Assembly: GCA_020444065.1 (NCBI GenBank)
Contig: JAHLLQ010000002.1
Span: 682,001-746,000 of the forward strand
DNA: 64,000 bases
Origin: a bacterium
GTDB lineage: Bacteria; Sumerlaeota; Sumerlaeia; SLMS01; JAHLLQ01
Reading direction: 5' to 3'
The stretch's first letter is position 1, and every line of letters starts with the position of its first letter. A model generated the notes under the pieces. It did not search any database. It saw only the letters and a list, made by a program, of their open reading frames with translations, and was not told the origin of the DNA. Both the position numbers and the translations under genes were made by a program. This document shows, in pieces, positions 44,953 to 49,857 of this stretch.

Positions 44953-45870
44953 ATGTTCTTCCCACGGCTGATCCCCGCTCTTGGCGTCCTACTGACGCTC
45001 TGCTCTATTTCCATCTCGTATGCACAGGACAACCTCCTGGCCCTGGCGCCGGAGGAGGCGGAAATCGTCGCCCGCCTGGATGTTCGCAGCGCCATCGATT
45101 CCCCGCTCTTTCAGAAGGTGCTGGAGTCCTACGGCGAAGAGAAGGCTCGCAACCAGGCCAAAGTCCTCCAGAACACCACCGATCTGGACATCTTCACCGA
45201 TCTGCAGGAGCTCTATCTGTTCGGAATCGTCGATCGTGATGAGTCAATCGTCATCCTGGCGCGCGGTAACTTCAACCAGGAGAAGCTGCTCGACCTGGTG
45301 AAGTTGAACGAGTCCTACCAGTCAGACAAGGTCGACGGCGTGACCGTTCACAAGTGGCGGGATGGCGATGAGAAGTACGGCGCATTCCTCGATGACAACC
45401 TTCTGGCCTTCGCGGGCAGCGAGGAGGCGATGCGGGTCCTTCTCGACACTCGGAACAAGGATCACGCCTCCTTCATGAGTACCCCGGCAGGCAAAGCACT
45501 GCCCAACGACATGAACTCGCACGATCTCTGGTTCGCGTTGCGCTCCACCGACAACACCAAGGGAGAGTTCGGCGAAATCTCTCACGCCATCGACCTGAAC
45601 CACGCCATCGCCACGGTGGATCTTGGTTCAAGCAATGTCTCCGCGAGCGTCCAGCTTCAGCCGAATCGCAAGGAGCTCGTCGAGAATTACCTTCAGATCC
45701 AACAAGGTGCCGTTGCATTCGCCCAGCTCTTGCGCGAAGAAGAAAAGGTCATCGATCTCCTCTCTCAGCGGGCGCGTGCCGAAAAGTCCGAAGACGGCAA
45801 GGCCGCCCGGCTGACGGTGGAGATCCCGAACGATGCCGCACTGAATCTGATCAAGCAGGCAGTGGACTGA
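44953..45870 (+). CDS. Secreted protein, DUF3352-like, first gene of the ECF operon
   Basis: 305 residues with a signal peptide ending at SISYAQ (about residue 24). The rest looks like a shorter relative of the exported protein at 16469: an opening with EAEIVARLDVRSAIDSPLF, then ESIVILARGNFNQEK, then a LLAFAGSEEAMRVLLD strand-helix unit. No catalytic motif. GAAGGAG lies before the ATG. The stop overlaps the sigma gene start (TGATG). Its place at the head of an ECF operon suggests it takes part in the envelope response that the sigma factor controls. Confidence 0.7.
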   Translation: MFFPRLIPALGVLLTLCSISISYAQDNLLALAPEEAEIVARLDVRSAIDSPLFQKVLESYGEEKARNQAKVLQNTTDLDIFTDLQELYLFGIVDRDESIVILARGNFNQEKLLDLVKLNESYQSDKVDGVTVHKWRDGDEKYGAFLDDNLLAFAGSEEAMRVLLDTRNKDHASFMSTPAGKALPNDMNSHDLWFALRSTDNTKGEFGEISHAIDLNHAIATVDLGSSNVSASVQLQPNRKELVENYLQIQQGAVAFAQLLREEEKVIDLLSQRARAEKSEDGKAARLTVEIPNDAALNLIKQAVD

Positions 45871-46508
45871 TGACTCGGCAGGATTCGCCCATCATGGCTG
45901 CGGCCATCGAGCCTCTGGCGACGACTTCCTCGCATTCGCGAGTGGAGTCGTCGCAGTCGCGTGCCGCGGACGCGGCCACCGTACGGCGTGTCCTGGATGG
46001 CGATCGCCAGGCGTTCGAAGAAATCGTTTTTGCCCACGAGCATTCCGTCTACCGCATTGCGCGTCGGATCCTCGGTAATCGCGAGGACGCAGAGGATGTG
46101 GCGCAGGAAGTCTTCGCGGCAGCGTTCACGAATCTTGGCTCGTTCGACTCCCGCCAACCACTGCGCCCGTGGATTGCGCGTATCACTGTCAATACGGCCA
46201 TTTCATATCGAAGAAGGCGTCAGCCGACGACTACGCTGGAGGATCAATGGCACAGCTCCAAGCGCCCCTCGCCGCGTGAGGAAGCGGAGGCGGACCAGCG
46301 CCACGAGCAACTCGACCGAGCCGTTGCACAACTGCCGGAGGCCAGTCGCGAGGCCGTGGCGCTGTTCTACGGCGAGGAGATGAAGATCGACGACGTGGCA
46401 CGAACCCTTGGGCGTCAGCCAGGAGCCGTGAAGGTCGCGCTGCACAGGGCGCGACTTCGCTTGAGAGAAATTGTTTTTGGCAATGCCGACAGAAGGGATG
46501 GTGAATGA
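45870..46508 (+). CDS. ECF-family RNA polymerase sigma factor
   Basis: 212 residues. Region 2 (DRQAFEEIVFAHEHSVYRIA, RILGNREDAEDVAQEVFAAA) binds the -10 and core polymerase; region 4 (LPEASREAVALFYGEEMKIDDVA, GRQPGAVKVALHRARLRLRE) is the helix-turn-helix that reads the -35. There is no region 1.1 or 3, so it is a minimal group 4 sigma factor. An unusual 40-residue Ser/Ala-rich N-terminal tail precedes region 2. It overlaps both neighbours in a three-gene operon. Confidence 0.93.
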   Translation: MTRQDSPIMAAAIEPLATTSSHSRVESSQSRAADAATVRRVLDGDRQAFEEIVFAHEHSVYRIARRILGNREDAEDVAQEVFAAAFTNLGSFDSRQPLRPWIARITVNTAISYRRRRQPTTTLEDQWHSSKRPSPREEAEADQRHEQLDRAVAQLPEASREAVALFYGEEMKIDDVARTLGRQPGAVKVALHRARLRLREIVFGNADRRDGE

Positions 46509-47092
46509 TGAACAGCGAAACGATTCGCCGACTGCAGGAATATCTCGATACGCATCCGGATGAGCCGCTCTCTCCGGTTCTGCAACGAGAAGTCGATGGC
46601 GATCCGAATCTGCGCGCGCTGTGGGAGGAACTGCAGGCGGTTGATGAGATGCTGGGCGAGACCGATGAATTGCCCGAGGGGCTTCATGATCGAATCATGC
46701 ACGGCATCGGCGCCGCGCCTGCTCCGAGCCGTCGTGCGAAGGTCCGTGTGCTTCTGCTCGCCCCGCTGGCTGCCGCTGCTGCCGTCGTGTTGTTCCTGGC
46801 GCTGAACTTCGAGCCAATGAAGCAGGAACCCATCACCCGCCACTCGCCGAAAAACTCATCGACCGAGCAGATTGCTCCAAATCTGGACTTCTCCGAACTC
46901 ACCATTTCTCAAGAACTGAAAGCCCCTGGAGACTTTGTTCGCCAAAAGCGCGATCGAGCAATTGAATCCGCGGAAGGACTGTTAGCGGGTGTGGTGAAGG
47001 TCCTCCCGCGCCTGCCGGAGGATTCCCCGCCACCTACCCCGACGCGAGAATCGCGATCTGCGCAGCAAACGCACCGATCCAGGCGAGCATGA
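46505..47092 (+). CDS. Probable membrane anti-sigma factor
   Basis: 195 residues. A cytoplasmic N-terminal helical domain of about 78 residues (RRLQEYLDTHPDEPLS, LRALWEELQAVDEML), one membrane helix (about 82-101) and a periplasmic tail of 95 residues. The ATGA overlap with the sigma gene is the classic sigma/anti-sigma arrangement. It lacks the zinc-binding HxxxCxxC motif of ZAS-type anti-sigmas. The function is inferred from topology and position. The last 59 bases overlap the convergent small membrane protein gene. Confidence 0.75.
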   Translation: MMNSETIRRLQEYLDTHPDEPLSPVLQREVDGDPNLRALWEELQAVDEMLGETDELPEGLHDRIMHGIGAAPAPSRRAKVRVLLLAPLAAAAAVVLFLALNFEPMKQEPITRHSPKNSSTEQIAPNLDFSELTISQELKAPGDFVRQKRDRAIESAEGLLAGVVKVLPRLPEDSPPPTPTRESRSAQQTHRSRRA

Positions 47093-47264
47093 CCAGCCAC
47101 TTGTATGACGACTCCCATTCCAGCAGGCCGAACAGAAGCGTGTAGATCCCACAGAAGATCCCAAGAATTCCCCAGATAATGCCCTTCTGCAAGAAGATGC
47201 CTACAAGCACCCAAATGAAACAGATTGATTGAACCACACTGCATGCCAACAGAATGAACTCCAT
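47034..47264 (-). CDS. Small membrane protein
   Basis: 76 residues, almost all hydrophobic, with three likely membrane helices (about 2-23, 26-47, 56-74). A very good SD (AGGGGG, 5 bases of spacing) precedes the ATG, the main reason to accept such a short gene overlapping the anti-sigma 3' end. The SD lies inside a long inverted repeat (47270-47319). No family recognised. Confidence 0.65.
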   Translation of the reverse strand: MEFILLACSVVQSICFIWVLVGIFLQKGIIWGILGIFCGIYTLLFGLLEWESSYKWLVMLAWIGAFAAQIAILASG

Positions 47265-47269
47265 GCTAT

Positions 47270-47319
47270 CCCCCTGGATTCGCGCTTGTGATTACATTGA
47301 TCGGTGTGAATCTAGGGGG
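47270..47319 (-). promoter_or_regulatory. Long inverted repeat covering the SD of the small membrane protein
   Basis: Arms of 12 bases (plus strand CCCCCTGGATTC at 47270-47281 and GAATCTAGGGGG at 47308-47319) pair at 11 positions plus one G-U, with a 26-base loop. In the minus-strand mRNA the downstream arm contains the AGGGGG SD, so the hairpin would hide it. Confidence 0.55.
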
Positions 47320-47372
47320 GCACGTTCTGTGGCGCAAGCGTTTCTATTGGGCTGCATCCGGAAACTAAAGTG

Positions 47373-47693
47373 TCATTGGAGCAGTGTCCGCATCGTTGAA
47401 CGATATTCCTCAAATGCCCGCCGTCCAGCTTGAGTCAGTCGCAATGTGGTGACGGGTCGCTTGCCTTCGAAGTGCTTCTCGACGTCCACGTAGCCGCCCG
47501 CTTCCAGCTTCGACAAATGGGACGACAGGTTGCCCTGCGTCAGTCCTGTCTGGCGCATGACGAACAGGAAGTCGGCGCTTTCCAGGACGCTGAGCAGAGA
47601 GACGATCGCCAGGCGGGCCGGCTCGTGAACCAGCCGATCGACGGATGCGAACGCTTGCGGATCAGGCGTCTTGTCAGGAAGCGGGTCACTCAT
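47373..47693 (-). CDS. Winged-helix transcriptional regulator (HTH_34/ArsR-like)
   Basis: 106 residues. The winged helix is plain: VHEPARLAIVSLLSVLESADFLFVMRQ, then LTQGNLSSHLSKLEAGGYV (recognition helix) and TTLRLTQAGRRAFEEY (wing and last helix). It belongs to the small MarR/ArsR-like group named HTH_34 that is usually paired with a membrane protein, as here. No cysteine metal site. The start overlaps the membrane protein gene by 8 bases. Likely a repressor of its own operon. Confidence 0.85.
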   Translation of the reverse strand: MSDPLPDKTPDPQAFASVDRLVHEPARLAIVSLLSVLESADFLFVMRQTGLTQGNLSSHLSKLEAGGYVDVEKHFEGKRPVTTLRLTQAGRRAFEEYRSTMRTLLQ

Positions 47694-48339
47694 CGGATGC
47701 CTCCGGTTCATACACCGGATTCTCGCGGACGAATCGCGCAAAGAGAGCGACTCCCAGCAGAACGAGCATGAGGCCTCCCGCGCCGTAGACGATCCAGGAT
47801 GCAGCGATTTCGGCGAACTCGCGCAGTGCCAGGTCTGTTGGCACCGTGGCGCCGAGAATCACGCCAAGGAGGAACATCCGCGGCTGATCCCAGTAGTAGG
47901 CCAGGACCGCAAACACGGCGATGATCTGAAACGCCCAGATGGCGGCCATCAGCATGGGGATGTTCAGCGGCGCATCAGTCGTCGGGTGCTTCCACAGGAA
48001 CATCGTCGCGAGCACAATTCCAGTCGTCACGATGAAGCCGGCCACAAACGCGAGGCGAACCTTGCGTTCCTTCTTCTTCCGCTCCTCGCCGAAAACCGCA
48101 TTCCCCAGGCGGCGGGCTTTGATGCGGTGGAATGCGTACCGGTGGATCCCCACGGCGGCGCCGATCACCACGAGGTAGATCGCAAATGACCAGCCGACGC
48201 CAATCTTCCAGTCGAGCATCGTCATGAAGAACCCGACCGCCATGACCAGCGCGCCGACGTAGATTTCGAACAAGCCCGTGTTGCGCGTTGCGGAGTACGC
48301 TCGGCGTTCGATCTGTTGCGCATTCAGTGTATCTTCCAT
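47686..48339 (-). CDS. Membrane protein co-encoded with the HTH regulator
   Basis: 217 residues with about six membrane helices in three pairs (about 23-42, 47-63, 95-115, 130-150, 158-172, 182-205). A charged cytoplasmic loop (FHRIKARRLGNAV, ERKKKERKVR) separates the first pair. It is first in a two-gene unit with the regulator; the regulator may sense a state of, or control, this protein. Family not recognised beyond the frequent pairing with HTH_34 regulators. Confidence 0.75.
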   Translation of the reverse strand: MEDTLNAQQIERRAYSATRNTGLFEIYVGALVMAVGFFMTMLDWKIGVGWSFAIYLVVIGAAVGIHRYAFHRIKARRLGNAVFGEERKKKERKVRLAFVAGFIVTTGIVLATMFLWKHPTTDAPLNIPMLMAAIWAFQIIAVFAVLAYYWDQPRMFLLGVILGATVPTDLALREFAEIAASWIVYGAGGLMLVLLGVALFARFVRENPVYEPEASDE

Positions 48340-48375
48340 GATGGGTCCTCCTGTTCACGTTCCTCATCTGGATTG

Positions 48376-48404
48376 AGTGAACCCATTGCCCTTCTGGTTG
48401 TCAA
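48376..48404 (-). promoter_or_regulatory. Promoter of the membrane protein/HTH regulator operon
   Basis: On the minus strand a perfect -35 TTGACA (48399-48404) is followed 17 bases later by TTCACT (48376-48381). The start codon is at 48339. Confidence 0.55.
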
Positions 48405-48408
48405 CGGA

Positions 48409-48433
48409 ATTTAGTTTGTGTCGCAAACCAAAT
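48409..48433. promoter_or_regulatory. Operator candidate for the HTH regulator
   Basis: Inverted repeat ATTTAGTTTG-TGTCG-CAAACCAAAT, 9 of 10 pairs, four bases upstream of the -35 of the operon that encodes the regulator. Spacing and symmetry suit a winged-helix dimer. Confidence 0.5.
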
Positions 48434-48582
48434 TGCAGGGAGCGGCAAATGGAATGACTGGGCACCTTGCCGGAAGCCCCGGTCCCAGCCAATTGGGTTG
48501 ACGACTGGCAGGCTCGAAGGCCAGCCCTTTCAGGCATTGGCGAGCCCAACTCGCCCCGATTCCTCGACGAGAACACGCCCCC

Positions 48583-49857
48583 ATGTTGGATATTCGATTC
48601 GTTCGCGAAAACCCCGATGATGCCCGCAAAGGCCTGCAGGCCAAACTGACCGATCCGGCCCTGGTTGACCAGGTGCTGGCGTTCGACGAGCAGCGTCGCA
48701 GCCTGATCCAGGAGACGGATGAGCTGAAGCGCCGCAAGAACGAGGTCTCGAAGCAGATTCCGCAGGTCGCCAAGGCCGGCGGCGACATCGAGGCGTTGAA
48801 GACTGAATCTCGCGGGATCGGCGACAAGCTGAAGGATCTGGACGACAGTCTGCGCACAATCGAGCAGGAGCAGCATGACATCCTGCTCCGCCTGCCGAAC
48901 ATGCCCGGGCCCGATACGCCGATCGGCAAGAGCGAGGACGAGAATGTCGTCCGCCGCACGTGGGGCGAACCGGCGAAGTTCGACTTCGACGCGCAGAGCC
49001 ATTGGGACCTCGGCCAGGCGCTGGATATCCTGGATCTGGAGCGCGGCGCCAAGATTTCCGGCAGCGGATTTTACGCACTGAAAGGCGCCGGCGCGCGACT
49101 GCAGCGCACGCTGGTGCATTGGATGCTCGACACACACACACGCAAGAACGGCTACACCGAAATCGCGGCACCGCATCTCGTGACGCGCCAGACGCTGACC
49201 GGCACCGGCCAGTTGCCGAAGTTGGAAGAGGACATGTACCGAATCGAGTCGGACGACTTGTTCCTGATTCCAACGGCGGAAGTTCCGGTAACGAACTTGC
49301 ACTCCGGCGAGATTCTGGACGCGGAGCAGTTGCCGATCAAGTACGTCGGCCACACTCCGTGCTATCGCCGCGAGGCGGGCAGCTATGGTCGAGAGAATCG
49401 CGGTATTTCCCGCGTTCACCAGTTCGACAAGGTCGAGATGGTTCAGTTCGTTCTTCCGGAGAATAGCAGCGACGCGCTGGAATCGCTGACGCGCAATGCG
49501 GCGGAGTTGCTCGAAGCGCTCGGCCTGACCTATCGCGTGCTGGAACTCTGCAGCGCGGACCTGTCTTTCGCAGCACAGAAGTGTTACGACCTCGAAGTGT
49601 GGGCGCCGGGCATGGATCGCTGGCTCGAAGTCAGCAGTTGCTCGAACTTCGGCGACTTCCAGGCGCGCCGCGCAAACATCCGGTTCCGCCGCGAGCAGGG
49701 CGCCAAGCCGGAGTTCCCGCACACGCTGAACGGTAGCGGTCTCGCATTGCCGCGCCTGATGATTGCTGTGATCGAGAACTACCAGCAGGCCGACGGCTCC
49801 ATCAAGATTCCCGACGTGTTGGTGCCAATGTTCGGCCAGGATCGCATCGGGGGCTGA
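48583..49857 (+). CDS. serS: Seryl-tRNA synthetase
   Basis: 424 residues. The N-terminal long coiled-coil arm (about residues 28-100) grips the long variable arm of tRNA-Ser. The class II core has motif 2 (HTPCYRREAGSYGRENRG, VHQFDKVEM) and motif 3 (NGSGLALPRLMIAVIENY). Typical length. No T-box or other leader was recognised in the 243 bases upstream. The trmJ-like gene starts 2 bases after the stop. Confidence 0.97.
   Translation: MLDIRFVRENPDDARKGLQAKLTDPALVDQVLAFDEQRRSLIQETDELKRRKNEVSKQIPQVAKAGGDIEALKTESRGIGDKLKDLDDSLRTIEQEQHDILLRLPNMPGPDTPIGKSEDENVVRRTWGEPAKFDFDAQSHWDLGQALDILDLERGAKISGSGFYALKGAGARLQRTLVHWMLDTHTRKNGYTEIAAPHLVTRQTLTGTGQLPKLEEDMYRIESDDLFLIPTAEVPVTNLHSGEILDAEQLPIKYVGHTPCYRREAGSYGRENRGISRVHQFDKVEMVQFVLPENSSDALESLTRNAAELLEALGLTYRVLELCSADLSFAAQKCYDLEVWAPGMDRWLEVSSCSNFGDFQARRANIRFRREQGAKPEFPHTLNGSGLALPRLMIAVIENYQQADGSIKIPDVLVPMFGQDRIGG

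Follow-up and report, generated by a model that had tools for sequence, protein, structure and literature searches.

A palindrome over the ribosome binding site of a small membrane-protein gene, possibly a static stem-loop of the transcript-end kind

In this study, we explored a palindrome that lies between two converging operons of a bacterial genome, within a 64,000-nt stretch of DNA analysed as a whole (the window). Our findings tentatively favour, with a probability of about 0.4, a model where the palindrome is a static stem-loop of the genome's transcript-end kind, placed in a tail-to-tail gap, overlapping the ribosome binding site (RBS) of a small gene and silencing run-in RNA without any sensor. 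The stem-loop would stand between an ECF/anti-sigma operon on the plus strand and a membrane protein/HTH operon on the minus strand, its strong form being the plus-strand RNA, and the small gene would begin directly behind it, so that its Shine-Dalgarno sequence (SD) and AUG fall in the downstream arm. On RNA running in from the HTH side the small gene is predicted to be shut, with about 13-17 kcal/mol needed for opening, and its translation would require an RNA that starts beyond the upstream arm; the proposed mechanism has no sensing step. The stem would end or protect transcripts, and a run-in RNA would presumably exist and be silent. Nothing that we found shows a role as a temperature or signal switch.

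The palindrome and its neighbours

The inverted repeat is found on the minus strand, where it separates an HTH gene, with its stop at 47373, from a 76-aa open reading frame whose ATG is at 47264. In minus-strand RNA the upstream arm (CCCCCTAGATTC, 47308..47319) starts 53 nt past the HTH stop, and a 26-nt spacer (47282..47307) separates it from the downstream arm (GAATCCAGGGGG, 47270..47281), which contains the SD AGGGGG (47275-47270), 5 nt ahead of the ATG. These 12-nt arms, their distance and the position of the SD had been given correctly by an earlier, sequence-only reading of this DNA; its description of the stem as eleven pairs plus one G-U does not hold for the mRNA, where the twelfth pair is A-C, G-U occurring only in plus-strand RNA. 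Beyond the arms, and after a 3-nt bulge, CGUGC (CGTGC in the DNA, 47324-47320) pairs with GCAUG (47266-47262) in the minus-strand fold, so that the stem is longer than described in that reading and the AUG of the small gene is also paired. Read as plus-strand RNA (47264..47322), the same palindrome makes 25 pairs in a 60-nt fold and 22 in its 50-nt core (47270-47319), where much of the spacer pairs further and a 3-nt loop is left. Four of the wobble differences between the two strand folds, read by eye, favour the plus strand and one the minus strand. A repeat family or MITE is ruled out by the single copy in the genome (pattern and DNA searches, the other DNA matches being 14-24 nt long and no better than E 0.37). 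Elsewhere in this genome, similar intergenic hairpins of the CCCAGGGTCG-TCCCGGTGCC type recur at G000:C2:254244-254311 and 256466-256522, perhaps as a small repeat family.

On the minus strand, the palindrome follows the gene of an HTH_34 winged-helix regulator (47373..47693), itself preceded by that of a 217-aa membrane protein (47686..48339). The plus strand carries an ECF sigma factor (45870..46508) and an anti-sigma-like protein (46505..47092), the latter below the NCBIfam cut-off. At its 3' end, the anti-sigma-like gene shares 59 bp (47034-47092) with the end of the small gene, in a tail-to-tail arrangement. The regulatory neighbourhood claimed for the small gene is thus real in content, with the ECF sigma, anti-sigma-like and HTH_34 genes all present, but the ECF operon occupies the opposite strand and is followed by other DNA in the one relative where it turned up. 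The locus as a whole was not seen elsewhere. Of the order's 11 other genomes, only G002, of the same family, has the anti-sigma-like protein, and the 217-aa protein had a single weak partial match (E 0.007) in these genomes; the HTH protein had none at E 1e-5, and searches for relatives of the intergenic region found none. As judged by eye, G002 keeps the three-gene operon (L058), corresponding to 44953-47092 here and composed of a 305-aa protein with no Pfam match, the ECF sigma factor and the anti-sigma-like protein. The DNA behind that operon differs, a response-regulator-like gene facing it at 19 nt, and inspection of the unfolded sequence by eye gave no similar hairpin at the G002 locus.

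The small gene itself (47034..47264, minus strand) encodes a 76-aa membrane protein, with a codon score of 17.4 over 77 codons and a size and start shared by several homologues. Relatives of similar size with 28-34% identity occur at L004, L005/L063, L006/L064 and L024/L065, and two of these relatives share its beginning. In a search of 40 genomes, its own included, 7 yielded matches with E no higher than 0.001. These matches total 10, counting the gene itself and its paralogue L069 (G000:C1:383541-383744), which lies in the same genome and has an ordinary leader. No Pfam or NCBIfam family reached the cut-off for the 76-aa protein, nor did any Pfam family for the five relatives scanned, and the 56 pattern matches obtained by searching the genome contigs with the small protein included no relative.

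Fold strength and occlusion of the ribosome binding site

The two strands fold with very different stability. Over an identical 70-nt segment, the minus strand reaches -22.3 kcal/mol, a value attained by 3 of 500 shuffles (z -3.3), and the plus strand -33.7 kcal/mol, attained by 0 of 500 (z -5.1); isolated, the 50-nt core gives -15.6 kcal/mol with 13 pairs on the minus strand versus -31.3 kcal/mol with 22 pairs on the plus strand. Longer minus-strand stretches stand out less from their shuffles (z -1.6 with 12 of 200 as low, and z -2.0 with 4 of 200), and the 60-nt fold of the plus strand is -33.4 kcal/mol. In the genome's own background, the minus-strand value is reached by 27.6% of 6012 intergenic 70-nt windows and the plus-strand value by 2.0% of them; for 77314 60-nt windows taken anywhere, the shares are 44% and 0.1%, respectively. 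Minus-strand stability is therefore ordinary for intergenic DNA in this genome, and the plus-strand fold is exceptional.

Folding supports the proposed occlusion of the RBS by the hairpin, and whatever gave rise to the palindrome, ribosomes should be kept off the small gene on RNA entering from the HTH operon. Freeing the SD is predicted to cost 13.7 kcal/mol, a value reached by only 1 of the 335 genes sampled, whose median is 4.0 kcal/mol (339 genes were called in 464 kb by a simple home-made codon-based caller, 335 being usable and the 76-aa gene uncalled); opening the SD through the AUG is predicted to cost 16.5 kcal/mol. The anti-SD in these calculations is the general bacterial one, the genome's 16S match spanning model positions 9-873 only. 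It is the opening energy that sets this leader apart: mean SD pairing is equalled or exceeded in 28 of the 335 genes, and the total energy of the minus-strand leader is as low in 45 of 335 leaders, so that neither is exceptional. The best hairpin covers position -10 in 18 of 103 long 5' flanks, and the two most stable of these have -25.0 and -24.5 kcal/mol. Moreover, the leader had been chosen in the sequence-only reading from about 53 genes in the window (52 called plus the small gene), and one with an opening cost of 13.7 kcal/mol is for that reason not very surprising. Eleven homologue leaders were folded, namely those of the nine other matches from the 40-genome search, L004 and the weak L012 (E 0.05), with start positions less certain for L071 and L012; their opening costs range from 1.6 to 6.1 kcal/mol and none shows a comparable structure.

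Could the palindrome be a product of chance, without function, in a GC-rich genome where repeats are common? Using as a measure 12-nt arms with at most one mismatch and a spacer of 3-60, we counted 20 inverted repeats in the window; 20 shuffles gave a mean of 10.45 (sd 3.3), so that shuffling alone predicts half the number. In the 44.4 kb of intergenic DNA within the 464 kb sampled there are 49, or about one per kb. The single genomic copy, the ordinary stability of the minus strand and the choice of a striking case among many gene starts are all in keeping with chance. Yet when this 280-nt gap was shuffled 500 times, such a repeat arose in only 10 cases, and both the shuffle results for the two strands, above all the plus strand, and the rarity of the SD opening cost speak against it. 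We regard an accidental origin as unlikely, if still deserving real weight.

A stem-loop in a tail-to-tail gap

Disregarding the small gene, the gap is a tail-to-tail one, although at 280 nt it is long for its class (median 86). The best 60-nt fold is at or below -30 kcal/mol in 11 of 23 tail-to-tail gaps, this one included (10 of 22 with it excluded), in 37 of 138 head-to-tail gaps and in 10 of 52 divergent gaps. Hairpins were also counted in flanks having 180 nt or more of free space, which were delimited by the home-made gene caller and shuffled once each. Single hairpins of -25 kcal/mol or lower occur in 10 of 43 3' flanks (0 of 43 when shuffled) and in 10 of 103 5' flanks (8 of 103 when shuffled). 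At -20 kcal/mol, the counts are 16 versus 8 shuffled for 3' flanks and 19 versus 29 for 5' flanks; at -15 kcal/mol, they are 29 of 43 versus 26 of 43 and 62 versus 61. The enrichment of hairpins behind genes is thus present at -25 kcal/mol and vanishes at the milder cut of -15.

The fit of this palindrome to the hairpins found behind genes is mixed. In head-to-tail gaps, 41 control hairpins at most 80 nt behind a stop lie at 12-56 nt from it (10th-90th percentile). On the minus strand the distance is right, 53 nt behind the HTH stop, but the core reaches only -15.6 kcal/mol; on the plus strand the core is strong (-31.3 kcal/mol) but the hairpin lies 171 nt behind the anti-sigma stop, beyond the usual range. 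In the 90 nt that follow the HTH stop, no hairpin better than -6.2 kcal/mol forms, because the second arm lies farther out, and with a flank measure of this 90-nt type the hairpin counts for neither side. One strong hairpin common to both strands is present in 14 of 19 tail-to-tail gaps, this gap not being among them. The GC-rich stem of an intrinsic terminator is there, but no U tract follows it on either strand (plus tail CACGTTCTGT, minus tail ATAGCATGGA), and the hairpin was not listed by a terminator scan limited to loops of 3-8. Behind the genome's strong stem-loops that follow genes (G000:C2:1-400000 plus the window), the next 8 nt contain on average only 2.0 T, as measured on the 41 controls.

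The stronger plus-strand fold suggested use of the stem by the RNA of the ECF operon. Among the 41 controls, however, the sense strand is the more stable in 17 and the antisense strand in 22, and a preference for the plus strand is therefore not evidence for the transcribed strand. A plus-strand function deduced from the G-U asymmetry was accordingly not upheld, the controls having no sense bias and one of the five wobble differences favouring the minus strand. On balance, we lean only tentatively toward use of the hairpin by the plus-strand RNA of the ECF operon.

Alternative readings and known systems

A silent run-in RNA of the HTH operon could also be combined with a promoter inside the hairpin, which would make a short, translated mRNA from near -20, devoid of the upstream arm. 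The best -10-like hexamer of the 110 nt before the ATG, TGTAAT (47291..47296, minus strand; 5/6), does fall in the loop; an equally good one is contained in 23 of 2000 random 26-mers from the window's minus strand, and RNA starting between -20 and -32 is predicted to open at 5.9-6.3 kcal/mol, near the highest homologue leaders. However, 101 of 1000 shuffled loops hold as good a hexamer, there is no -35 match (best 1/6), and a promoter scan of 46900-48700 gave none, with the proviso that the scored motif may not be that of this lineage. Such an internal promoter is rather doubtful. More doubtful still is a full chromosomal counterpart of the phage T4 lock, in which one palindrome would act as end stem of the ECF operon (perhaps of the HTH operon too), silence the small gene on run-in RNA and hold that gene's own promoter in its loop, leaving translation to mRNA started there, with antisense control added by plus-strand read-through from the ECF operon.

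A regulated translational switch, be it a thermometer, a leader that responds to a protein or an RNA, or antisense control exerted in cis by RNA of the plus strand, we consider improbable. The stem does contain both the SD and the AUG, its opening cost is almost unmatched in the genes sampled, and an RNA from the opposite strand would form a compact hairpin over the RBS. Yet the earlier suggestion of an RNA thermometer finds no backing in silico, as the SD fails to melt: it is paired to 99.3% at 37 C, 98.8% at 55 C and still 93% at 85 C, so that pairing persists above the physiological range and a thermometer is rejected on predicted melting. For comparison, the thermosensing hairpins of Pseudomonas ibpA are reported to have -4.1 to -7.6 kcal/mol, against -15.6 kcal/mol for the core here, and perfect pairing of the SD abolished their response (PMC3669281). 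No Rfam riboregulator or known thermometer family was recognized either: in Rfam 15, with E up to 1, the stretch 46000-49000 gave one match only, located off-site (46340-46400) and far under its gathering score (18.1 bits versus 70). A conserved switch finds no support in the folded homologue leaders, 0 of 11 of which, the genome's own paralogue included, show anything similar.

A DNA operator, with two 12-bp half sites for the HTH_34 protein or another regulator, is very unlikely: the DNA is palindromic and the HTH_34 gene adjoins, but half sites 26 bp apart seem too widely spaced for a dimer of winged-helix proteins, arm matches with at most two mismatches number 12 in the window against 9.2 expected, the only exact ones being the two arms, and the absence of any arm match ahead of the HTH operon (48340-48582), hence of a second site, led us to reject it.

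Overall, the static stem-loop that we favour is ordinary in kind. If this is right, an RBS-covering hairpin can belong to the neighbouring transcription units rather than be a sensor of the gene that follows; folding both strands, using the genome's own background and comparing homologue leaders would help to tell such cases apart. Were the promoter in the loop real, the locus would show in compact form how overlap can insulate a gene of a bacterial chromosome. The mRNAs of type I toxins combine a small hydrophobic protein with a sequestered SD, two features also seen here, but the homologous genes have ordinary leaders (11 folded), and an antitoxin RNA would be hypothetical here. RNA thermometers (ROSE-like, fourU) likewise pair the SD in a 5' hairpin; the ibpA hairpins described in PMC3669281 are weak and imperfect, whereas the core here is far stronger and unmelted in silico. 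Tail-to-tail stem-loops and intrinsic terminators, also GC-rich and placed between converging units, can be read through to make antisense RNA, as reported for the lexA-asRNA of Staphylococcus aureus (PMC8745188); here, the stem has no U tract, stands 171 nt behind the plus-strand stop and covers the RBS of a small gene. Related in arrangement are the RBS hairpins of phage T4 (I-TevI, I-TevII, I-TevIII, segB, soc, e) and mobE of phage Aeh1, which place a very stable stem over the RBS on long run-in transcripts (PMC2988022), a configuration that RNA initiated upstream also adopts here in silico. In the T4 late genes and homing endonucleases, early and middle transcripts carry the structure, and transcription from a late promoter gives RNA that lacks it in its full form (PMC2988022), whereas the locus described here, in a bacterial chromosome, offers a weak -10-like hexamer in its place.
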